Source: an uncultured Eubacteriales bacterium (GTDB lineage: Bacteria > Bacillota > Clostridia > Oscillospirales > Oscillospiraceae). From it: a stretch of DNA of 36,449 bases. Each line of letters opens with the position of its first letter. Positions within the stretch are counted from its first letter, which is position 1. Positions 2 through 28,277 of this stretch are shown here, one piece after another. A program made the position numbers and the translations under genes. The stretch spans positions 1 through 36,449 of the forward strand of contig ONCI01000021.1 in NCBI GenBank assembly GCA_900316255.1, written 5' to 3'. The notes beneath the pieces are model-generated. The model worked only from the letters and a program-made list of their open reading frames with translations, did no database searches and had not been told where the DNA came from.

Positions 2-3000
2 GTCAGCTCCGTCAGCGGCAGCAACATCAACCTGACGGACGCCGAAGGCAAGACCATTCAGATCTACAAGGCCGTCACCGGCGATGAGACCTATGCCGAG
101 GGCGACGTGATCAACTTCACCGGCGCCGTTGGCATCTACAACACGACCCTCCAGCTGCGCAACACCCTGGCCAGCGAGATCAGCCGCAAGGCCGAGGCCA
201 AGACCGGCTTCGTCACCGACCTGGCCGACCTGACCGAGGGCGCCATGGTCGTGATCCTGAACCCGGCCCACAACAAGGCCCTGAGCCAGGTCTACTCCGG
301 CAACTACAACTCCGGCGTGGACGTGGCTGTGAAGGACGGCAAGCTCACCGGCTTTGCTGCCAGCGAAGTCTGGACCGTCGGCGTCAACGCGGACGGCACC
401 TATACCTTCTCCACGGCCGATGGAAAGAAGCTCTCCATGGCCACAAGCTATTCCAGCATGTCCTTTGATAAGGATTACCCCAACTGGTCCGTGACGCCTG
501 TCGACGGCACCGAGGGCGGCTTCTACATCACCAACACCGGCCGCTCCGGCAACCGGATGGAGTGGTATGCCGACAGAAATTACTGGAGCTGCTACTACAA
601 GGACAACGAAGGCGAGCTCTTTATCCAGCAGTTCTATCTGGTGGATGAGATCCCCGCCGACCAGCCCGGCGAAGGCGAGCCCGCCGACGGCCAGCAGGTC
701 GTGATCTACTGCGCCGCCGCCGAGGGCGTGCTGGGTCTGCCCAACGACATGGGCAACAGCTTCCAGCTGGCCCCCGCCACGGTGGAAAATGACGCGGCTG
801 TCGTCTCCAACGGCGCCCTGGTCTTCACCGTGACCAGAGAAGGGGAGGACTATACCTTCGAGACCGGCGGCAAGTACCTTGCCACCAGCGACGCGGAGGA
901 CCTCTTCCTCCAGGATACCCAGGACGGGTACACCAAGTGGTATCTCACCAAGAACGGCGACGGCTTCCTGATCTACAACCGCACCGCCAAGTATAACGGG
1001 AACCCCGTCTGCATCGAGTTCTTCTCCGGCTCCTTCTCCGGCTGGACCTTCAAGAGCTCCGACGCCGCCATCTTCCGCTTCAACTTCTATCCCGTGGCGG
1101 AAGGCACCGCTGTGGTGAACGGCGTGGCACAGGTCCCCTCCGTGAACTTCGACTGCGAGGATACCCGCTATGTGGGTCAGGACTATGAGGTCAAGTTCAC
1201 GCTGGACGATCTTGCACCCGAGATCGCCGATATCTCCGTCACCTACACCATCGGCGATGTGACCGAGCAGGTGCAGGAGATGAGCTTTGCGGACAAGACC
1301 GGCTCCTTCACCCTGCCCGCCGCGGTGCTGGACGCTTCCGGCATCATCAAATCCTTCACCGTCACCGTGAGCGTGAAGAACAGCTATGATCTCACTTACG
1401 CCGGCGTCAAGACCGTCACTGTGGCGGACGAGCCCTACATCGGCAAGCTGACGCCCGCTCCCAATGCCCAGACCCTGGAGGACAAGCGTCCCGTCATTTC
1501 CGCCGAGATCGGCAACGTGGGCGAGAACGCCGTCTTCACCATGACCGTGAACGACGAGCCCGTTGATGCGGTTTACGCCGACGGCGTCCTGCGCTACCAG
1601 GCGGCCGAGGACATGGCCGACGGACGCTACACCGTCATCATCACCGCGGTGCGCGCTGACGGCAAGACCGTGGAGAAGATGTGGAGCTTCTTTGTGGGCG
1701 AGGCCCAGCTCCAGCTCTTCTTCGGCCAGCTGCACTCCCACACCACCTATTCCGACGGCTCCGGCACCCTGGATGCCGCCCTGGACTACATCTCCAAGAT
1801 CCCCGAGAGCGGCAACATCCAGTTCGTGGCCTTCACCGACCACTCCAACTACTTTGACTCCACCTCTGCCGCCAACCCCGAGGAAGCGCTCTATGACGTG
1901 AGCAAGATGACCGACGCCAGCAGAGTCACCTGGGATACCTACAAGCAGACCGTTGCGAACTTCAACGCTTCCCAGGGCGCCCTCGTGGCCATCGCCGGCT
2001 TTGAGATGACTTGGTCCGGCGGCCCCGGCCACATCAACACCTTTAACAGCCCCGGTCTTGTCTCCCGCAACAACACCACCCTGAACAACAAGACCAACGA
2101 CGCCGGCATGAAGGCCTACTACGCCCTGCTGGGCAATGAGGCGCTCTCCGGCGCGCTGAGCCAGTTCAACCACCCGGGCAAGACCTTCGGCAACTTCACG
2201 GACTTCTCCTACTGGGATGCTGTCACCGACAGCCGCATCTATCTGGTCGAGGTCGGCAACGGCGAAGGCCAGATCGGCGCCGGCGGCTACTATCCCAGCT
2301 ACGAGCAGTACATCATGGCCCTGGACAAGGGCTGGCACGTCGGCCCCACCAACAACCAGGACAACCACAAGGGCCGCTGGGGCAACGCCAACGACGCCCG
2401 CGATGTTATCCTCACCGATAACTTCAGCGAGCAGGGCATTTACGACGCCATCAAGCTCTACCGCATCTACGCCACCGAGGACAAGAACCTGGAGATCCAG
2501 TACACGGTGAACGACGAGCCTCTGGGCACCATCTTCAGCGAGATCCCCGAGGAACTGGCCTTCTCCGTCTCCGTCTACGATCCGGACGACAGCGACTCCA
2601 TCACCAAGGTGGAGCTGGTCGCCAACTCCGGCAAGGTGGCCTACACCTGGGATGATCCCAACGAGATCAAGACCGGCCTCCTGGAGGTCACCCTGGATCC
2701 CGCCTACAATTACTACTTCGTCCGCGTCACCCAGGCCGACGGCGACCTGGCGGTCACGGCGCCTGTGTGGGTGGGCGAGAGCCTGAAGCTGGGCATCTCC
2801 GCTGTGGAATGCGGCACCTCCACGCCGGTCACCGGTGAGGAATTCACCCTGAGCACCACCTTCTACAACAGCGAAGCCACCGCCGCGACGGTCAAGTCCA
2901 TCGTCTACACCGTCAACGGCAGCGAGGTCATCGGCACCGATTCTGAGCAGCACAGCATTCCCGCCAGCTCCACTGCCACCGTGGACTTCAAGTACACGCC

Positions 3001-5482
3001 CGCCGTTGCCAAGATCATGACCATCACCGTGACGGCGATCGTGGAAATGGACGGCGAGGAGTACACCTTCACCAAGGACATCGAGCTGCAGGTGAAGGAC
3101 GCCGACAAGCTGGTCTACATCGGCATCGACGCCTCCCACTACAACGAGTATGTGGCCGGCAACTACAAGGACAGCATGGGCAACTTCGGCGCCCTGGCCG
3201 CGGGCTACGGCGTCCGCACCGTGGAGCTGAAAACCTCCGAGGAACTGATCGCCGCCTGCTCCAACGAGAAGTATGTGGCCATCATCTTCACCGCGCCCTC
3301 CCGCCGTCTGCCTGCCGCCCAGTCTGACCCGAGGACCTACTCCGCCGAGGAGATCGCCGCCATTACCGCCTTCAACCAGGCCGGCGGCCAGGTGATCGTC
3401 TGCGGCTGGGCCGACAACTACGAGAACTACTCTGTCATCACCGGCAATCCCGAGGTCAAGCACATGGCCCAGACCCAGAACGAACTGCTGGCCGCGCTGG
3501 GCTCCAGCATCCGCCTGGGCGATGACGAGGCTGTGGACGATGTGCTCAACGGCGGTCAGTCCCAGCGCCTGTATTTGGACGCCTTCAACTTTGACAGCTA
3601 CCTCATGCAGGACGTCATCGTGGATCCCGAGCATCCCAACGACCGCAACTATTCCGAGGTCTACTCCAACTACGGCGGCTGCTCCGTGTTCTTTGAGGGC
3701 GAGGGCGTTCCCGCCACTGTGACGCCTATCGTCTACGGTCACAGCAGCACTTACACCAAGGACTGCGACGGAGACGGCCTGAATGAACAGATCTATCCCT
3801 ACGGCGACGGCCAGCGCGTGGTCCTCATGGCCAGCGAGCAGCTGACGGACAAGGGCCTGATCATCGTTGCGGGCGCTGCCTTCATGTCCAACTTTGAGGT
3901 CCAGGCTGCTGCTTCCAGCGGCTCCTCCGACGCGGACATGCAGAAGAACTACGCCAACTACAAGATCTGCGAGAACCTGGTGAAGGGCTTCAACGAGATC
4001 ACCGTGACGCCCATTGCCGAGGTCCAGAAGCAGACCGAGATCGGCCTGGTCTACACCATCGAGGGCACCGTGACCTCCAACGCCTCCGGCTATGACAAGG
4101 ACACCGCCTTCTTCGACTGCATCTATGTCCAGGACGAGACCGCCGGCATCTGCTGCTTCCCCGTCTCCGGCAACTACAAGATCGGCGATCGGGTCCGCAT
4201 CACGGGCTACACCGACTTCTACCAGGCTGAGATGGAGCTGCAGGTCATGAGCATCGAGGTCATCGGTGAAGGCGAGCCTGTCCAGCCCATCGAAGTCACC
4301 GCCGCCCAGATCAACGATCTGAGCGTGCTGGGCTCCCTGGTCACCCTGAAGGGCACCGTGGAGAGCTTTGAGACCGAGAACGGCCTGATCCAGACCATCC
4401 TGGTCAAGGACGCCGCCGGCAATATCGCCCGCGTGTTCATCGACGGCTACATCACCACCGCCGTGGATGTGATGGACCTGGCTGTCGGCTGCCGGATCGA
4501 GGCCACCGGTCTCAGCTCCTATGACGACACCTGGAAGGACAGCAATTACTTCCCGCGCATCCGCGTGCGCGACCGTGCGGATATCATCTGCACGCCTGCC
4601 GCGGACGCCGCCGTGGTCTATGGCCGCACCCTGCTTCTCCAGAGCAAGATCGGCATCCGCTTCTATCTGGATCTGCCCGAGACGCTTCTGGCTGACAGCG
4701 CTGCCTATGTGAGCATCGACGGCGTGAAATTCTCCGTGAGCTCTGCTCCCACCAGCACGATTTCCGGCAAGACCTATCGCAGCTTCACCATCTTCGTGAA
4801 GCTCACGGAGCTCACCGAGAAGCACCTGCTCCGCGTCTTCAACGGTGCGGACGAGGCTGTTGCGCTCCTTGATCGCGAGGGCGCCGACTATACTGCCGAG
4901 GGCTACAGCTATGCTGCCCAGCAGTACATCGAAGCGGCCCGCGGCACCGGCAATGAAAAGCTCATCAAGCTGGTCAACGCCCTGTCCGACCTGGGAAGCC
5001 TTTCGCAGCTGTATTTCAAGGTGGATGAGGAGAACCGCGCCGAAGTCCTGGCCGACCTCAGCGCTGTAACGCTGGAGTCTGTCACCGACTATGCGCCTCA
5101 GGTGAACGTGAAGGACGGCGCCGGACTGAGCTTCATCGGCAGCAGCCTGCTCCTGCGGGAGGATTTCACCATCCGTCACTACTTCAAGGTCACCGGCGAT
5201 ATCAGCCAGTACACCTTCATGGTGGACGGCAAGAAGGTCACGCCGGTCCAGAAGGGTGATTACTACTTCGTCCCGATCAAGAATATCTATTCTACGGATC
5301 TGAGCAAGAACTTCCATGTGGAGGTCAGTTCCGCCGCCTCCGGTGTGATCGCCGAGATCGATTACTGCGCCCTCAGCTATGCCTACAAGCAGCTGAATAC
5401 CGGTGAGGAATCCGATCTCACGGATCTCATCCGTGCCCTGGTGCTCTACAGCCGGGAAGCCGATTCCTACTTCGGCGGCTGA
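2..5482 (+). CDS. Large secreted multidomain protein with PHP/CehA-type metallohydrolase domain (5' partial)
   Basis: The reading frame is open from base 2, so the true start lies upstream and 1826 residues of the C-terminal part are visible. Order: the end of an OB-fold-like region; two beta-rich modules (about 180-1110); Ig-like modules (1140-1715); a PHP/CehA-McbA-type phosphoesterase domain from 1722 with HSH (1733-1741), FTDHSN (near 1832), FNHPGK (near 2165) and NNQDNHKGRW (near 2350) as likely metal ligands; a CARDB-like module (2790-3100); a glutamine-amidotransferase-like fold (3110-3950); OB-fold repeats (4010-4600); and two copies of a C-terminal module (4610-5479). No sortase motif, SLH repeat or dockerin is visible at the C-terminus. 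Related giant proteins are exported and thought to act on extracellular nucleotides or phosphoesters, but the substrate is not deducible here. The C-terminal module recurs in the protein at 22422. Confidence 0.8.
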   Translation, partial: VSSVSGSNINLTDAEGKTIQIYKAVTGDETYAEGDVINFTGAVGIYNTTLQLRNTLASEISRKAEAKTGFVTDLADLTEGAMVVILNPAHNKALSQVYSGNYNSGVDVAVKDGKLTGFAASEVWTVGVNADGTYTFSTADGKKLSMATSYSSMSFDKDYPNWSVTPVDGTEGGFYITNTGRSGNRMEWYADRNYWSCYYKDNEGELFIQQFYLVDEIPADQPGEGEPADGQQVVIYCAAAEGVLGLPNDMGNSFQLAPATVENDAAVVSNGALVFTVTREGEDYTFETGGKYLATSDAEDLFLQDTQDGYTKWYLTKNGDGFLIYNRTAKYNGNPVCIEFFSGSFSGWTFKSSDAAIFRFNFYPVAEGTAVVNGVAQVPSVNFDCEDTRYVGQDYEVKFTLDDLAPEIADISVTYTIGDVTEQVQEMSFADKTGSFTLPAAVLDASGIIKSFTVTVSVKNSYDLTYAGVKTVTVADEPYIGKLTPAPNAQTLEDKRPVISAEIGNVGENAVFTMTVNDEPVDAVYADGVLRYQAAEDMADGRYTVIITAVRADGKTVEKMWSFFVGEAQLQLFFGQLHSHTTYSDGSGTLDAALDYISKIPESGNIQFVAFTDHSNYFDSTSAANPEEALYDVSKMTDASRVTWDTYKQTVANFNASQGALVAIAGFEMTWSGGPGHINTFNSPGLVSRNNTTLNNKTNDAGMKAYYALLGNEALSGALSQFNHPGKTFGNFTDFSYWDAVTDSRIYLVEVGNGEGQIGAGGYYPSYEQYIMALDKGWHVGPTNNQDNHKGRWGNANDARDVILTDNFSEQGIYDAIKLYRIYATEDKNLEIQYTVNDEPLGTIFSEIPEELAFSVSVYDPDDSDSITKVELVANSGKVAYTWDDPNEIKTGLLEVTLDPAYNYYFVRVTQADGDLAVTAPVWVGESLKLGISAVECGTSTPVTGEEFTLSTTFYNSEATAATVKSIVYTVNGSEVIGTDSEQHSIPASSTATVDFKYTPAVAKIMTITVTAIVEMDGEEYTFTKDIELQVKDADKLVYIGIDASHYNEYVAGNYKDSMGNFGALAAGYGVRTVELKTSEELIAACSNEKYVAIIFTAPSRRLPAAQSDPRTYSAEEIAAITAFNQAGGQVIVCGWADNYENYSVITGNPEVKHMAQTQNELLAALGSSIRLGDDEAVDDVLNGGQSQRLYLDAFNFDSYLMQDVIVDPEHPNDRNYSEVYSNYGGCSVFFEGEGVPATVTPIVYGHSSTYTKDCDGDGLNEQIYPYGDGQRVVLMASEQLTDKGLIIVAGAAFMSNFEVQAAASSGSSDADMQKNYANYKICENLVKGFNEITVTPIAEVQKQTEIGLVYTIEGTVTSNASGYDKDTAFFDCIYVQDETAGICCFPVSGNYKIGDRVRITGYTDFYQAEMELQVMSIEVIGEGEPVQPIEVTAAQINDLSVLGSLVTLKGTVESFETENGLIQTILVKDAAGNIARVFIDGYITTAVDVMDLAVGCRIEATGLSSYDDTWKDSNYFPRIRVRDRADIICTPAADAAVVYGRTLLLQSKIGIRFYLDLPETLLADSAAYVSIDGVKFSVSSAPTSTISGKTYRSFTIFVKLTELTEKHLLRVFNGADEAVALLDREGADYTAEGYSYAAQQYIEAARGTGNEKLIKLVNALSDLGSLSQLYFKVDEENRAEVLADLSAVTLESVTDYAPQVNVKDGAGLSFIGSSLLLREDFTIRHYFKVTGDISQYTFMVDGKKVTPVQKGDYYFVPIKNIYSTDLSKNFHVEVSSAASGVIAEIDYCALSYAYKQLNTGEESDLTDLIRALVLYSREADSYFGG

Positions 5483-22022: not shown

Positions 22023-22148
22023 ATGCACGACACCTTGGACATCAACAGCGGAAATGCTGACGTCACCGGAGACGGAAAGGTGGGCTCCGCCGACCTGGTC
22101 CGTATGCGGAAGTATCTGGCCGGCGATCCCACAGCCGTGCTTGACTGA
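22023..22148 (+). pseudogene. Orphan type I dockerin fragment
   Basis: A 41-codon frame containing one dockerin-type calcium-binding repeat: DVTGDGKVGSADLVRMRKYL, then AGD. Asp, Asn/Asp, Asp and Asp of the EF-hand-like loop and the following helix are preserved. A complete dockerin has two such repeats and sits at the end of a larger secreted protein. Here the frame is closed upstream by TAA (22014) and has no ribosome-binding site or signal peptide, so it is probably the relic of a lost dockerin protein. It lies 270 bases upstream of a cohesin-like gene. Confidence 0.65.
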
Positions 22149-22421: not shown

Positions 22422-23849
22422 ATGAAAGCAATGAAGCGTTTTCTTTCCCTGGCAATGGTTTGCCTGCTCCTTTGCGGACTCCTTCCGGGCTTTGCCTATG
22501 CAGACGATCCCGCAGTTGGCACAATCGCTCTCAGCAATGCTTCCGGTAATGCCGGAGACACCGTTACGGTGGATGTAACGATCCAGAGCAATCCCGGCGT
22601 GATGGCGATGAAGCTGATGCCGCTGTTTGACACTGCAGTTTTGGAGCTGCAGGGAACCGAAGCGGACACGGAATCCGGATGGACTCTCGGCGCCGATGGC
22701 CAGGTTCTTTATGATACCTATCCCGACTCCACCTTTACCGGTAAGGTCGTGACCTACACCTTTAAGATCCTGGCTGATGCCCAGCCCGGCGAAACTCAGG
22801 TGAACCTCGAAGTCAAGGCAGCCAACTATGATGAAAACCTGGTCGAGTTCACTGTGACTCCCGCCACCATTACCGTCGGGGGCGAGAGCGGTAAGGTAGA
22901 CTTCCCCTTCAACCACAGCGCTTCCTTCGGCAACAACCTGTCCCTGAACTACTATATGCCCATCGAGTATGTGGAGGGCTATGAGCTTGACCGCCTGGAG
23001 ATCCGCCAGGTGCACTACAACGGGGAGGGTTCCGATTACACTTGGCGCGAGTATAACCTGACCTCTTGGGAGGACTCCAAACTAGGCGGGAAGAACTATA
23101 AGAAGATGGTGTTCGATAACATCGCGGCCAAGGAACTGGGCGACGACCTGTATGCCACCCTGTATCTGACCAAGGACGGCGAAAGCTACGAGAATACCGT
23201 CGATATTTACAACCTGAAGCAGTATGCATACAACCGCCTGAACAAGTCCACCGACGCCGCATTCAAGACCCTGCTGGTCGATCTGCTGAATTATGGTTCT
23301 CAGGCGCAGCTTTACTTCAACTACAACACTGCCAACCTGGCCAACGCGGATCTGACCGCGGAGCAGCAGGCCTACGGTACGGCTGAGATGCCCGAACTCA
23401 AGAGCGTGGAGAACGCCATCACCACTCCGGACGCCAGTGCTTTCTACTATGGCAAGACCATCGTGATGGGCAGCTATGTGGAGCTTCGGTACTACATGCA
23501 GTTTGGTGCCGGCAAGAACGAGGCTCCTGCCGATACGGTGAAGCTTGTCCTGACTTACACCAAGGTCAATGGTGAGACGGTTTCCGTGACGATCCCCGCC
23601 TCCGAGTTTGACTACAATTCCGGTTATAAGGCCTATTTCGCGAGCTTCACCGGCATCTCTGCCAAGGATATGCGCTGCACGGTGACGGCAAAGATCTATG
23701 ACGGGGACACCCTCATCAGCGACGTGCTGGAGTACAGCATCGAGACCTATGCCAAGAACCGTCTGGAGAAGTCCACGGACGAGGCTTTCAAGGAGCTGAT
23801 GCGGTGCCTGATGAAGTATGGCATTTCCGCCGAAAACTACCTGAGCTGA
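22422..23849 (+). CDS. Secreted protein with N-terminal cohesin-like domain and two C-terminal modules
   Basis: 475 residues. A signal peptide (1-27, likely cut after AYA) precedes a cohesin-type beta-sandwich (about 33-155: NASGNAGDTVTVDVTIQSNPGVMAMKL, then GKVVTYTFKI and a closing VTPATITV). Cohesins bind dockerins in cellulosomes and related assemblies; no second cohesin is present. The rest contains two copies of a module ending in YAYNRLNKSTDAAFKTLLVD...YGSQAQLYF and YAKNRLEKSTDEAFKELMRC...YGISAENYL, also found twice in the protein at 2-5482. No wall anchor is visible. The 33-codon peptide gene follows after 36 bases on the same transcript. Cohesin identity rests on sequence pattern and needs a profile check. 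Confidence 0.75.
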   Translation: MKAMKRFLSLAMVCLLLCGLLPGFAYADDPAVGTIALSNASGNAGDTVTVDVTIQSNPGVMAMKLMPLFDTAVLELQGTEADTESGWTLGADGQVLYDTYPDSTFTGKVVTYTFKILADAQPGETQVNLEVKAANYDENLVEFTVTPATITVGGESGKVDFPFNHSASFGNNLSLNYYMPIEYVEGYELDRLEIRQVHYNGEGSDYTWREYNLTSWEDSKLGGKNYKKMVFDNIAAKELGDDLYATLYLTKDGESYENTVDIYNLKQYAYNRLNKSTDAAFKTLLVDLLNYGSQAQLYFNYNTANLANADLTAEQQAYGTAEMPELKSVENAITTPDASAFYYGKTIVMGSYVELRYYMQFGAGKNEAPADTVKLVLTYTKVNGETVSVTIPASEFDYNSGYKAYFASFTGISAKDMRCTVTAKIYDGDTLISDVLEYSIETYAKNRLEKSTDEAFKELMRCLMKYGISAENYLS

Positions 23850-23885
23850 TAAAAAATCAACAGATCATAAAAGGAGAAATCAACT

Positions 23886-23987
23886 ATGAAGACCTATGAA
23901 GCTACCAAGATGGAGATCCTGCAGTTTGTCGACGCCGATATCCTGACCGTCTCCGGTCAGTGTGAGGACGAGGGCGAGCTGGACTGA
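23886..23987 (+). CDS. 33-residue peptide, candidate RiPP precursor
   Basis: ATG 23886 with AAGGAG nine bases upstream, a strong translation signal for so short a gene. The product starts MKTYEATKMEILQF, continues VDADILTVSGQ and ends in a Cys plus acidic tail (CEDEGELD). The N-terminal half resembles a leader peptide; the single Cys and the Thr/Ser residues (TVSG) would be the modifiable core. It follows the cohesin-like gene by 36 bases and is closed by a strong terminator; a radical SAM/SPASM gene starts 234 bases downstream from its own promoter. I do not recognise a named family with certainty. The function is inferred only from context and could instead relate to export or the neighbouring secreted protein. 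Confidence 0.6.
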   Translation: MKTYEATKMEILQFVDADILTVSGQCEDEGELD

Positions 23988-24022
23988 TCCGGCCTGATAT
24001 CACACCAGAGCAGTCACAAGGC

Positions 24023-24054
24023 AAAAGATCCGGGGAGTATACCCCGGATCTTTT
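24023..24054 (+). terminator. Terminator after the peptide gene
   Basis: A perfect 13-bp stem, AAAAGATCCGGGG with its complement, a 6-base loop and a run of T. It separates the peptide transcript from the radical SAM gene. Confidence 0.9.
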
Positions 24055-24092
24055 CCTTTTCCAAAGGTTCCTCAGATCGTCTTTCGAAGGTT

Positions 24093-24130
24093 GAAATACT
24101 TGCGCCGTCAAGCAGCCTGTGGTAAAGTGA
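24093..24130 (+). promoter_or_regulatory. Promoter of the radical SAM gene, near-identical to the Card1-like promoter
   Basis: TTGCGC (24100-24105), a 17-bp spacer and TAAAGT (24123-24128) with extended -10 TGG. The blocks GAAATACTTGCG and GCCTGTGGTAAAGTGA are identical, at the same spacing, to 27037-27074. Confidence 0.7.
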
Positions 24131-24220
24131 GCGCAGAGACACAGTTTCAGCGGCTGCGCCCCGGATCACGACCCGACTGGGGGAAATGCCGGCGGGCGCA
24201 GAGGAAAGAAGGAGCAAACC

Positions 24221-25552
24221 ATGATAATCGTACGAAACGGGAATCGGATGGTCCTGGATATCATGCAGCAGAGCGTTTTTCCCGACAGGGATTACCGCCT
24301 GAACCCATATGTCTTTTCTGCGGCCGAAGAAAATGGCGGGCTCCTGAAAAATATGGAGACGGGAATGGTTGTTTCCCTGTCAGATGCGGAGCTGCGTCTG
24401 ATCGAGCCTTTGGAGCAGGAAAGCGTGAAGGGAGCGGCCTTGCTGGAGGCCGGCCTTGGGGATTGCGTGAAGTACGGCTTCCTGGTGGAGAAGGAGACGG
24501 ACGACTACCAGCAGTACAGACAGCTGTGTTCCCTGCTGCCGCTTCTGGCCAACGAGAAGCCCGGAACCAAAATCTATACGATCCTGCCCACCACAGCCTG
24601 CAATGCCCGCTGCGTCTATTGTTACGAAGAAGGATTGCCGGTCCTGTCCATGAGCGAGGAAACGGCGGATAAGGTCGTGGAATTCATTGAGAAGACCCGC
24701 TGGCAGGATACGGTAACGCTCCTCTGGTTCGGGGGAGAACCGCTGGCGGGAAGCAAGATCATATCCAGGATCTGTCGCGGACTGCGGGAGAAATGCATCC
24801 CCTTTCGCTCCCAAATCATTACAAACGCCACGCTGATGAGCGCCGAGCTTCTGGAGGAGGCTGTTTCTCTCTGGTGCCTGGAGTCTGCCCAAGTCTCTGT
24901 TGATGGCTTACGAGCCGACTACGAGGCACGGAAGCAGTATGTGAATCCGGCGTCACACCATTATGACGCCATGATGGATGCTGTGGGGAGGATGCTGGAG
25001 AAGGGGATCCATGTCACCTTGCGCTGCAATTATGACGGAGACAATATTGACGGGCTGGAGGCTTTTGCGCAGGAAGTGAGGACTCGCTTTGCCTGCCGGG
25101 ACAAGCTGTCTTTCTATCCCGCCATGCTGTTTCAAGTGAAATCTCTGGAAAGCGGAATCGACCTGCAACGAAGGATCCAAAGCCTGAAGGATCGACTTGT
25201 GGAGATGAATCTGGCGGATAACGAGAAAAAACGAAGCGCCCTGAAAACCAACTACTGCGGCGCTGACAGCGGCGACAAAAACGTGGTGATCGCGCCTGAC
25301 GGGCAGCTTTATCATTGTGAACATCTTCCGGGGAACACGGCCTTTGGCAGTGTATACGATCCGGATCCGGTCATCTGCTCCGATCCGAGGGCGGAGCTTG
25401 AGGCCGATGAAATGTGCAGGACCTGTCCCTTCCTGCCGGAATGCACACCCTTCTACAAAAACGGCTGCGCGGATTATTATGCCAACTGCCGCGCGTTCAA
25501 ACAAATTGATCTGGAAGCGGTCCTGCGACGGATAGCCGATGAGATCCAATAA
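24221..25552 (+). CDS. Radical SAM/SPASM peptide maturase-like enzyme
   Basis: 443 residues. The N-terminal ~110 residues look like a PqqD-type winged-helix peptide-recognition region (NPYVFSAAEENGG, then LSDAELRLIEPL, then KYGFLVE). The radical SAM core has CNARCVYC (C127, C131, C134), binding the 4Fe-4S cluster that cleaves S-adenosylmethionine, and GGEP (171-174). The C-terminal SPASM domain has C346, C366, C399, C402, C408, C416 and C423, enough for two auxiliary Fe-S clusters. Such enzymes install thioethers or C-C links in ribosomal peptides, or mature sulfatases. No sulfatase is in the window and a 33-residue peptide gene lies just upstream, favouring peptide maturation. The start has AAGGAG eight bases upstream. 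No peptidase or exporter gene accompanies it. Confidence 0.88.
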   Translation: MIIVRNGNRMVLDIMQQSVFPDRDYRLNPYVFSAAEENGGLLKNMETGMVVSLSDAELRLIEPLEQESVKGAALLEAGLGDCVKYGFLVEKETDDYQQYRQLCSLLPLLANEKPGTKIYTILPTTACNARCVYCYEEGLPVLSMSEETADKVVEFIEKTRWQDTVTLLWFGGEPLAGSKIISRICRGLREKCIPFRSQIITNATLMSAELLEEAVSLWCLESAQVSVDGLRADYEARKQYVNPASHHYDAMMDAVGRMLEKGIHVTLRCNYDGDNIDGLEAFAQEVRTRFACRDKLSFYPAMLFQVKSLESGIDLQRRIQSLKDRLVEMNLADNEKKRSALKTNYCGADSGDKNVVIAPDGQLYHCEHLPGNTAFGSVYDPDPVICSDPRAELEADEMCRTCPFLPECTPFYKNGCADYYANCRAFKQIDLEAVLRRIADEIQ

Positions 25553-27104: not shown

Positions 27105-28277
27105 ATGCGCACCCTGATCGAACTGTACGATGAACGGCCCCTGGAAAACGTGTTGGGCGTGGAGATGTTCCGGCCGCAGCGGGTGATCTACGTCTGCCCG
27201 GAGAATGTGGCCGGGGACAAGCGGGTCCACCGGCAGCTGAAGGAATACTTCCGGCACCGGGGACTGGCACCGGAGCTCTCCTTTGTCCGCACCGACGTCT
27301 ATGACAGCGAGTCGGTGCTGCAGCGCCTGCGCAGCATCACCGAACAGGAGGAGGACTGCGCCATCGACATCACCGGCGGCACGGACGCGGTGCTCTTTGC
27401 CGCGGGACTTCTCAGCGCGGAGCGGCCTGTGCCGGTCTTTACCTACAGCCGCAAGCGGAACCGGTTTTTTGATATCCGCAACGCTGCTTTTGCCGCGGAT
27501 CTGCCCTGCGACGTGCGCTTTACGGTGGAGGACTGCTTCCGCATGGCGGGCGGCTCCATGCGTACCGGACGGGTGGATAACCGGATCCTGGACCGCTATA
27601 TGGACGATTACGATCCCTTCTTCGTGCTCTACCTGGAGCACCGGCGGGACTGGACCCACATCGTGACCTATTTCCAGCGGATCTCCCAGACGGCGCCGGA
27701 TGCGGCCATCCCCCTGGATGTACAGGGCCCCTATGTGGTCAAGGGAGAACGTGCCTCCAGGATCCAGGCTCCGGAGAAAGCCCTTGCGGATCTGGAGAAG
27801 CTGGGCTTTTTGCAGCAGCTTCAGATCACCCCGGGGGAGCAGGTCAGTTTCCGCTTCCGGGACCATCAGATCCGCACCTGGCTGCGCGACGTGGGCAGCG
27901 TGCTGGAGCTCTATACCTATAAGGCCTGCCTGGATACGGGACTGTTTGACGACGTGCGCACCAGCGCTGTGGTGGACTGGGAAGAGAACAAGAAGGACAA
28001 CGCGGTGTCCAACGAGCTGGACGTGATGGCCACCCGGGGCGTGACCCCGGTATTCATCAGCTGCAAGACCTGCGATGTAAAGACCGAGGCTCTCAACGAG
28101 CTGGCGGTGCTGCGGGACCGCTTCGGCGGCCAGATCGCCCGGGCAGCCATCGTGACGGCGGAGCGGGGGCGGACTGTGATGCGGAACCGCGCCTCCGAAC
28201 TGAACATCCAGGTCATCGACCTGAACGACCTGCAGGCGGGACGGATCCAAAAGCGCCTGGAGTCCCTGATGCGATAA
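27105..28277 (+). CDS. Card1/Can2-like CARF-domain nuclease (DUF1887 type), stand-alone
   Basis: 390 residues. The N-terminal CARF domain (about 1-150) has VIYVCPEN and the ligand-loop pattern DITGGTDAVLFAAG (88-101), the site for cyclic oligoadenylate in CARF proteins. A winged-helix-like middle (about 155-260) follows. The C-terminal PD-(D/E)xK nuclease has NELD (303-306) and FISCK (317-321) with K321; the acidic residue usual before CK is Ser319 here, so E304 and D306 may supply the acids. Card1/Can2 enzymes cut nucleic acids when activated by cyclic tetra-adenylate from type III CRISPR complexes. No cas genes or CRISPR array occur in the window. The start has GGGAGGCG upstream, and it is a single-gene unit with its own promoter. 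Confidence 0.82.
   Translation: MRTLIELYDERPLENVLGVEMFRPQRVIYVCPENVAGDKRVHRQLKEYFRHRGLAPELSFVRTDVYDSESVLQRLRSITEQEEDCAIDITGGTDAVLFAAGLLSAERPVPVFTYSRKRNRFFDIRNAAFAADLPCDVRFTVEDCFRMAGGSMRTGRVDNRILDRYMDDYDPFFVLYLEHRRDWTHIVTYFQRISQTAPDAAIPLDVQGPYVVKGERASRIQAPEKALADLEKLGFLQQLQITPGEQVSFRFRDHQIRTWLRDVGSVLELYTYKACLDTGLFDDVRTSAVVDWEENKKDNAVSNELDVMATRGVTPVFISCKTCDVKTEALNELAVLRDRFGGQIARAAIVTAERGRTVMRNRASELNIQVIDLNDLQAGRIQKRLESLMR

Follow-up and report, generated by a model that had tools for sequence, protein, structure and literature searches.

What does a radical S-adenosylmethionine (SAM) enzyme of the SPASM type act upon when its gene lies downstream of a 33-residue peptide gene, which in turn follows the gene of a secreted cohesin-like protein? 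The question is raised by contig ONCI01000021.1 of an uncultured Eubacteriales bacterium of the Oscillospiraceae (assembly GCA_900316255.1). The whole stretch, 36,449 nucleotides, is referred to here as the window and is contig C67 of a 2.7 Mb genome (136 contigs, completeness 96%); labels beginning with C, L and G are our own, for contigs of this genome, loci and genomes, respectively. The first-pass annotation, made from the sequence alone, had placed three genes here, all of which are present on the + strand where it put them (Table 1), and had proposed that peptide and enzyme form a new system akin to ribosomally synthesized and post-translationally modified peptides (RiPPs). We consider it reasonably probable (about 0.6) that the peptide is a RiPP-type precursor which is thioether-modified at a core cysteine by the SPASM enzyme, guided by a RiPP recognition element (RRE), has its leader cut and is exported through an operon acting in trans, and has an extracellular role with the surface protein.

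Results

Linkage of peptide and enzyme

A contig scan gave 554 relatives of the enzyme, the best 80 of which, representing 79 distinct loci, were used here; in addition, 300 genomes of the host family were surveyed, nine of which carry the enzyme at E<=1e-40. With an iterated profile, a peptide homologue (model E<=0.005) was found within 3 kb of the enzyme at 58 of the 79 loci, on the same strand as the enzyme in 56 of these, 54 of which have E<1e-4. None of 48,669 reversed open reading frames (ORFs) matched the peptide profile at E<0.01, and the peptide-profile matches listed include none of ten further radical SAM loci from the same genome (L001-L010, with 1.5 kb flanks). Within the host family the peptide is upstream of the enzyme in six of the nine enzyme-bearing genomes (the present one, G174, G187, G036, G274 and G080), the start of the G174 peptide lying within a run of G and the gene being possibly frame-shifted. 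On these sequence grounds the peptide is the conserved partner of the enzyme, and the pairing that the first-pass annotation had read from a single locus is borne out among its relatives.

The precursor peptide family

The window peptide scores 36.2 bits with the family profile, the next ORF of the window reaching 3.6. In the peptide alignment S23 is invariant, D18 is nearly so and the residues past S23 vary, while relatives have Y or F near position 4-5 and a leader end of the form ..EDVITTS. Short, genetically linked to its enzyme, and composed of a conserved leader and a variable core (the boundaries being set by eye), the peptide has the features by which a RiPP precursor is recognized. 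The first profile matched 46 of the 300 family genomes at E<=0.05 and 29 at E<=1e-3, where the weak matches include pieces of longer ORFs and may be due to chance; seven of the nine enzyme-bearing genomes are among the peptide genomes. Three such peptides are encoded in the present genome (C67, C52 and C96), the latter two having been found by the first profile (E 0.001 and 0.005) without being part of it. As judged from these matches, the peptide family is the constant part and is wider than the enzyme, and the window peptide is a member of a widespread, unnamed family of 30-60 residues in bacteria of gut and rumen. No NCBIfam model matched the window peptide or seven of its relatives, and the strings EDVITTS, DVITTSG, DIITTSG, DIICTSG, DVIVTSC and EDVIVTS were absent from the literature searched, in which sequences shown only in figures would escape notice. 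Three Prevotella-type loci (L085, L087 and L089) encode peptides of the form MExKKKFEKPQM.VVKLKPAG.., with two tandem HPrK-like genes at L085.

The core cysteine

The strongest functional clue is the association of a core Cys with the enzyme. Such a residue is found in 64 of 67 enzyme-adjacent peptides (leaving out duplicates and peptides with E >1e-4), and in 2 of 23 peptides from family genomes without the enzyme, the 23 being those that were read, with further copies in the same genomes. The latter figure was 3 in the script count and 2 after hand correction; in L153 and L155 the automatic split had counted leader cysteines as core residues, and the within-family table was redone by hand. 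Within the family the proportions are 11 of 15 in enzyme genomes versus 2 of 23 in genomes without it (p 6.6e-5) or, counted per genome, 7 of 7 versus 2 of 21 (p 3e-5). The enzyme genomes do have four Cys-free peptides, two of which belong to the present genome, and none is beside the enzyme. G174 has three distant peptides with Cys, and the enzyme may therefore act in trans there. Taken from sequence, these associations suggest that the Cys is the residue that becomes modified.

Analogy with CteB and PapB points to a thioether as the modification. PapB joins Cys to Asp or Glu and accepts Cys-Xn-Asp with n of 0-6, according to the portion of PMC9413430 available to us, and this tolerance would cover the window core. 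Among 34 hand-picked peptides, the window's included, D or E is at Cys+4 in 14, and there is a weak hint of Asp at +3 and +4 from the first core Cys (10 and 11 of the 34; binomial p 0.007 and 0.002, uncorrected for the number of positions).

The radical SAM/SPASM enzyme

The CxxxCxxC motif (C127, C131, C134) and cysteines 346, 366, 399, 402, 408, 416 and 423 are invariant among 50 aligned enzymes, in agreement with the earlier assignment of a radical SAM enzyme with seven SPASM cysteines; the PF13186 SPASM model itself remains under its cut-off in the window enzyme (14.6 vs 21.5 bits). In the PDB, fold and sequence alike give 5why/5wgg as the best match (TM 0.62), which we take to be CteB; the match to 5why, whose title refers to thioether bond formation, extends over the full length, and further fold matches are TigE, SuiB and anSME. 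The structural model of the enzyme (pLDDT 91.9, with block pLDDT at least 85 in residues 1-100) has four predicted strands within residues 24-53, helices in 55-84 and a strand at 88-90. Residues 24-90 are predicted to run from strands into three helices, a pattern close to that of RREs as they are described in the accessible part of PMC8326336, where CteB is likewise stated to have an N-terminal RRE. Downstream, a gene for a Card1-like endonuclease (PF09002) occupies 27105-28277; a near-identical ending follows the enzyme in an 80%-identical relative (L029), the gene order of enzyme and PF09002 thus being conserved.

Helper genes elsewhere in the genome

The first-pass annotation remarked upon the lack of a peptidase or exporter, which is true of the locus, but the genome does have a candidate operon on contig C37 (L164:5919-9061), compact and encoding HPrK-like, PqqD, signal-peptidase-like and ABC transporter proteins, with no peptide gene beside it. 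The PqqD protein scores 58.2 bits (Pfam cut-off 23.4), the ABC protein is likewise over its Pfam cut-off, and GxGKST and NDDKP are invariant in the HPrK-like alignment. An HPrK-like gene (E<=1e-30) is present in 25 of the 29 peptide genomes (E<=1e-3) versus 20 of the 271 others (Fisher 3e-20), an association whose p-value is too small on account of genome kinship and whose direction is clear from these genomes; the four peptide genomes without the gene are 59-86% complete. Near the 79 enzyme loci the counts were 44 for PqqD, 32 for HPrK-like, 29 for signal-peptidase-like and 18 for ABC genes, and six enzyme-free loci (L149, L150, L152, L153, L154 and L156) have a PqqD gene, an ABC gene or both next to the peptide; at several of them HPrK-like and signal-peptidase-like genes are present as well, together with nucleotidyltransferases of PF14907. 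Together, the C37 operon and the co-occurrence of the HPrK-like gene answer the puzzle of the missing exporter with a candidate that would act in trans, and the signal-peptidase-like protein of C37 is, from its sequence, a candidate leader peptidase. A region of contig C79 (L163:5767-10429) holds two NTP_transf_5 matches, one PqqD match and, by eye, a second PqqD-like ORF, and in its surroundings small membrane-anchored proteins ending ..GF and genes resembling those of polysaccharide export were seen by eye.

Gene layout and long ORFs ahead of peptides

The peptide gene starts 36 bases past the stop of the secreted-protein gene, behind a clear ribosome-binding site, as the first-pass annotation had noted, and the enzyme gene starts 233 bases past the peptide stop. 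A promoter-like site lies 5' of the secreted-protein gene and none is listed on the + strand from there to the enzyme gene; the scan gave 5 promoter-like sites vs 1.8 in shuffles, and 1 terminator-like site vs 3.2. The layout fits co-transcription of secreted protein and peptide. As for the terminator attributed to the peptide gene, a hairpin is there (23985-24075 folds at -32.1 kcal/mol, with a shuffle mean of -19.65 and z -4.22), but the consensus terminator scan did not list it, its T run being interrupted by CC.

The surface-protein neighbour, to which the first-pass annotation had drawn attention, recurs elsewhere, and many of the long upstream ORFs are secreted. An ORF of at least 430 residues ends no more than 200 bases upstream of 19 of 21 family peptides versus 5.9% of random positions; at least 1400 bases upstream were needed and peptides with E >1e-5 were excluded, 17 of the 21 coming from regions chosen among profile matches and 4 from enzyme loci. 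At L138, one of the two misses, a giant protein lies 265 bases upstream. A signal-like N-terminus (crude hydropathy rule) was found in 10 of the 14 long upstream ORFs whose start was covered, and the upstream ORF of L143 is ATPase-like. Short-flank loci have a long ORF within 600 bases in 18 of 29 cases, several others being cut by the stretch end, while at loci found via the enzyme a long upstream ORF is rarer (24 of 59 peptides from 48 loci, 2 of the 24 being the enzyme itself) and at some others of these an HPrK-like gene precedes the peptide.

The long proteins are diverse, among them a subtilase with Ig-like repeats (L138) and the cohesin-like protein of the window. The last 316 residues of the latter are a tandem module of the '..ALY.Y..AA..YF'-like helix kind, common to giant proteins ahead of peptide genes elsewhere, and such a helix is the C-terminal end of many long proteins ahead of family peptides. 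A fold search with the window protein was not informative, the 50 matches listed being mostly fibronectin-type or immunoglobulin-like with TM to the query of at most 0.18. On contig C127 (L205:9354-16547) a 2397-residue protein shares its last 20 residues identically with the cohesin-like protein, and no peptide gene was found behind or beside it, so that the C-terminal module alone does not predict a peptide. The window also contains a 1791-residue ORF (107-5482), part of which resembles a PHP-type domain, with an ending like those of the surface proteins and no peptide gene behind it in the window. Just 5' of the cohesin-like gene, the short frame DVTGDGKVGSADLVRMRKYLAG (22023-22148), which we take to be a dockerin-like repeat, is possibly a gene remnant.

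Shared C-terminal tails

Of 94 peptide cases, 30 have at least one small (<450 residues) neighbour with a signal-like N-terminus, and in 7 of these 30 the C-termini of peptide and neighbour match at a BLOSUM62 score of at least 18 (permutation mean 1.05, maximum 5, n=2000). Thresholds of 12 and 15 gave 11 vs 5.46 (p 0.0095) and 8 vs 2.02 (p 0.0005), respectively; the test is post hoc, the pattern having first been spotted by eye in the same loci, and leaves out L063, which is on the same contig as L021. The seven loci are L056, L088, L033, L054, L144, L022 and L094, with neighbours that are small secreted or lipoprotein-like, and tails common to both partners include DENEWA (L056), PNETEIL (L088), WELPR (L033) and PEIEF (L054). 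Six of the seven peptides have a core Cys and the last 14 residues of those neighbours are Cys-free, hence the shared part is the Cys-free end of the peptide. The tails at L150 are alike by eye and scored 7 only, the offset being 4. A by-eye look among the ORFs of the window found no tail partner of the window peptide. The simplest account of shared tails would be a common binding partner, for example the neighbouring surface protein.

Table 1. Features of the peptide locus (positions in the window).
Feature	Position	Strand	Basis
Secreted protein, 475 aa, signal peptide-like N-terminus (by eye)	22422..23849	+	ORF; PF00963 Cohesin, E 1.6e-8
Cohesin-like domain, aa 35-152	22524..22877	+	PF00963 Cohesin, 35.3 bits vs cut-off 24.1
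Tandem C-terminal module, aa 159-475: (beta-rich part + helical hairpin) x2	22896..23846	+	
Ribosome-binding site AAGGAG of peptide gene	23871..23876	+	Sequence; ATG at 23886
Precursor peptide, 33 aa	23886..23987	+	MKTYEATKMEILQFVDADILTVSGQCEDEGELD; family model matches
Leader-like conserved half, aa 1-23, ending ..DADILTVS	23886..23954	+	Alignments; exact boundary inferred
Putative variable acidic core GQCEDEGELD, single Cys	23955..23984	+	Inferred core
Terminator-like hairpin between peptide and enzyme genes	24023..24054	+	Folding energy vs shuffles
Radical SAM/SPASM peptide maturase, 443 aa	24221..25552	+	PF04055, E 8.7e-15
Predicted RRE-like winged-helix domain, aa 1-95	24221..24505	+	Predicted structure only; sequence profile comparison negative
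Radical SAM core, aa 122-284	24584..25072	+	Pfam match
Seven-cysteine SPASM region, C346 to C423	25256..25489	+	Invariant columns

Discussion

We infer a route in which the conserved N-terminal half of the peptide (about 23 residues) would serve as a recognition leader and the short acidic C-terminal part as the core. The SPASM enzyme, guided by its RRE-like N-terminal domain, would form a thioether (-2 Da) between the Cys of the core and an acidic residue close by, whereupon the leader would be removed and the product exported by the signal-peptidase-like protein and the ABC transporter, with PqqD and HPrK-like proteins, all encoded on C37 and acting in trans; this helper set may serve several precursors. 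Since the precursor gene accompanies that of a secreted surface protein, the product probably acts outside the cell together with that protein.

Several observations weigh against this route. At 21 of the 79 enzyme loci no peptide was recognized within 3 kb, some of these loci being cut by contig ends and four having a peptide 3.9-7.1 kb away, and two of the nine enzyme genomes of the family (G109 and G295) gave no peptide, the contig of G109 beginning just upstream of the enzyme. Three of the 67 enzyme-adjacent cores are without Cys, and the window core GQCEDEGELD has no Cys-X3-Asp/Glu, with Gly at Cys+4. A hairpin separates the peptide and enzyme genes, with no + strand promoter-like site listed between them. 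When the N-terminal parts of the enzymes were compared by hhalign with 52 PqqD-like helpers, no profile similarity emerged; the PqqD-like N-terminus claimed in the first-pass annotation is supported only by the predicted structure and its full-length 5why fold match. The HPrK-like and signal-peptidase-like proteins of the genome match no Pfam family and reach NCBIfam models only with scores under the cut-off (23.2 of 200 bits for HprK-related kinase A and 22.8 of 51.85 bits for signal peptidase I), and the peptidase label is weak for this reason. Last, the genomes in all counts are related, and the p-values overstate their independence.

The enzyme may instead alter the core by a different radical reaction, giving a C-C or C-O crosslink, an epimer or the excision of a residue; the Cys would then serve as a ligand or as a partner in catalysis and would not donate the bond. 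The three cores without Cys would be compatible with this, as would the fold relatives SuiB and TigE, which make bonds other than thioethers; we nevertheless hold it to be unlikely, as the core Cys tracks the presence of the enzyme and the best match by fold and PDB sequence is 5why/5wgg. It is also conceivable that the peptide acts unmodified, as a signal or as a partner of the surface protein, with the enzyme recruited only sometimes, given the many family members behind long ORFs in enzyme-free genomes. This we regard as improbable: most enzyme-free peptide genomes have an HPrK-like gene, and at six of the enzyme-free loci that were read the peptide has PqqD genes, ABC genes or both as neighbours, which points to processing even without the enzyme. 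A sulfatase maturase, or an enzyme whose substrate lies elsewhere and whose peptide is a chance neighbour, seems scarcely credible. It is true that anSME is among the fold matches and that TIGR03942 matches 49 of the 50 aligned enzymes at E<=1e-5, but the genome gave no PF00884 match where 10 of 14 control genomes gave one, and chance is at odds with linkage at 58 of 79 loci. The sulfatase reading, which the first-pass annotation had itself raised, is accordingly rejected, with the reservation that a missed sulfatase is still possible in a genome about 96% complete.

A lasso-like peptide was considered in view of the leader end T-S before G or C, and of PqqD, HPrK-like, nucleotidyltransferase and ABC helpers such as those of Firmicutes lasso clusters of the paeninodin type. 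The closest arrangement that we found in print is that of lasso clusters from the rumen, in which HPr kinase, PqqD and nucleotidyltransferase occur (PMC7533575, in the sections available), and in the paeninodin type a PqqD-type B1 protein binds the leader, as stated in the part of PMC5067487 at hand. Two of the helper PqqD proteins are matched by lasso PqqD models, albeit with scores short of the cut-off (30.1 and 35.3 bits against 70). In contrast to those clusters, the present system has a signal-peptidase-like gene in place of a B2 protein over cut-off (both genome matches to Transglut_core3, PF13471, are under it), a radical SAM enzyme, and family cores of 5-8 residues, too short for a lasso; this reading, judged with no genome-wide search for the asparagine-synthetase-like cyclase, is disfavoured and, in our estimate, very improbable.

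With the thioether RiPPs of CteB and the PapB ranthipeptides the system shares the full-length fold match to 5why, a Cys in an acidic core, seven SPASM cysteines and a short leader-like half, but differs in lacking a fixed Cys-X3-Asp, in having the precursor behind a secreted-protein gene with helper genes in trans, and in its score with PapB (71.3 of 340 bits). The best-scoring models for the window enzyme are TIGR04463 (98.1 of 525 bits), CefB (95.9 of 600), geopeptide (TIGR04280; 92.5 of 400) and Clo7bot (90.5 of 600), all four of which match all 50 aligned enzymes; the window enzyme is nonetheless far under the NCBIfam cut-off in all 25 SPASM maturase models among the matches listed, so that each of these named families was set aside, and the eight scanned peptides match no NCBIfam model. 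By sequence, then, the locus resembles thioether RiPP systems such as those of CteB and PapB, with helper genes like those of lasso clusters, and falls under no named family model tested, in keeping with the first-pass view of a RiPP-like peptide and SPASM pair outside the classes that it could name. Among the titles and abstract openings in the literature searched, none describes this arrangement.

The shared tails invite a more tentative proposal, which we think somewhat unlikely to hold in full: a three-part extracellular system of a Sec-made surface protein, a modified peptide for whose production and export one machinery serves the whole genome, and a small secreted or lipid-anchored protein that copies the peptide's tail. 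The tail common to both would act as the ligand for docking onto the surface protein; the peptide, soluble and chemically locked, would compete with the anchored version or take its place. There would be several sets of address tags per genome, one for each surface protein. No such system is described in the literature searched.

Conclusions

The locus belongs to a large unnamed peptide family that is connected with surface proteins and with candidate genes for maturation and export, and short ORFs of a sort often missed in annotation thereby acquire a role that can be tested. The association of core Cys and enzyme makes the chemistry testable with one peptide and one enzyme. For these organisms, the arrangement suggests that RiPP-type precursors may be scattered through the genome, each behind its own surface protein and served by an unlinked processing operon, a dispersal that would escape cluster-based mining.

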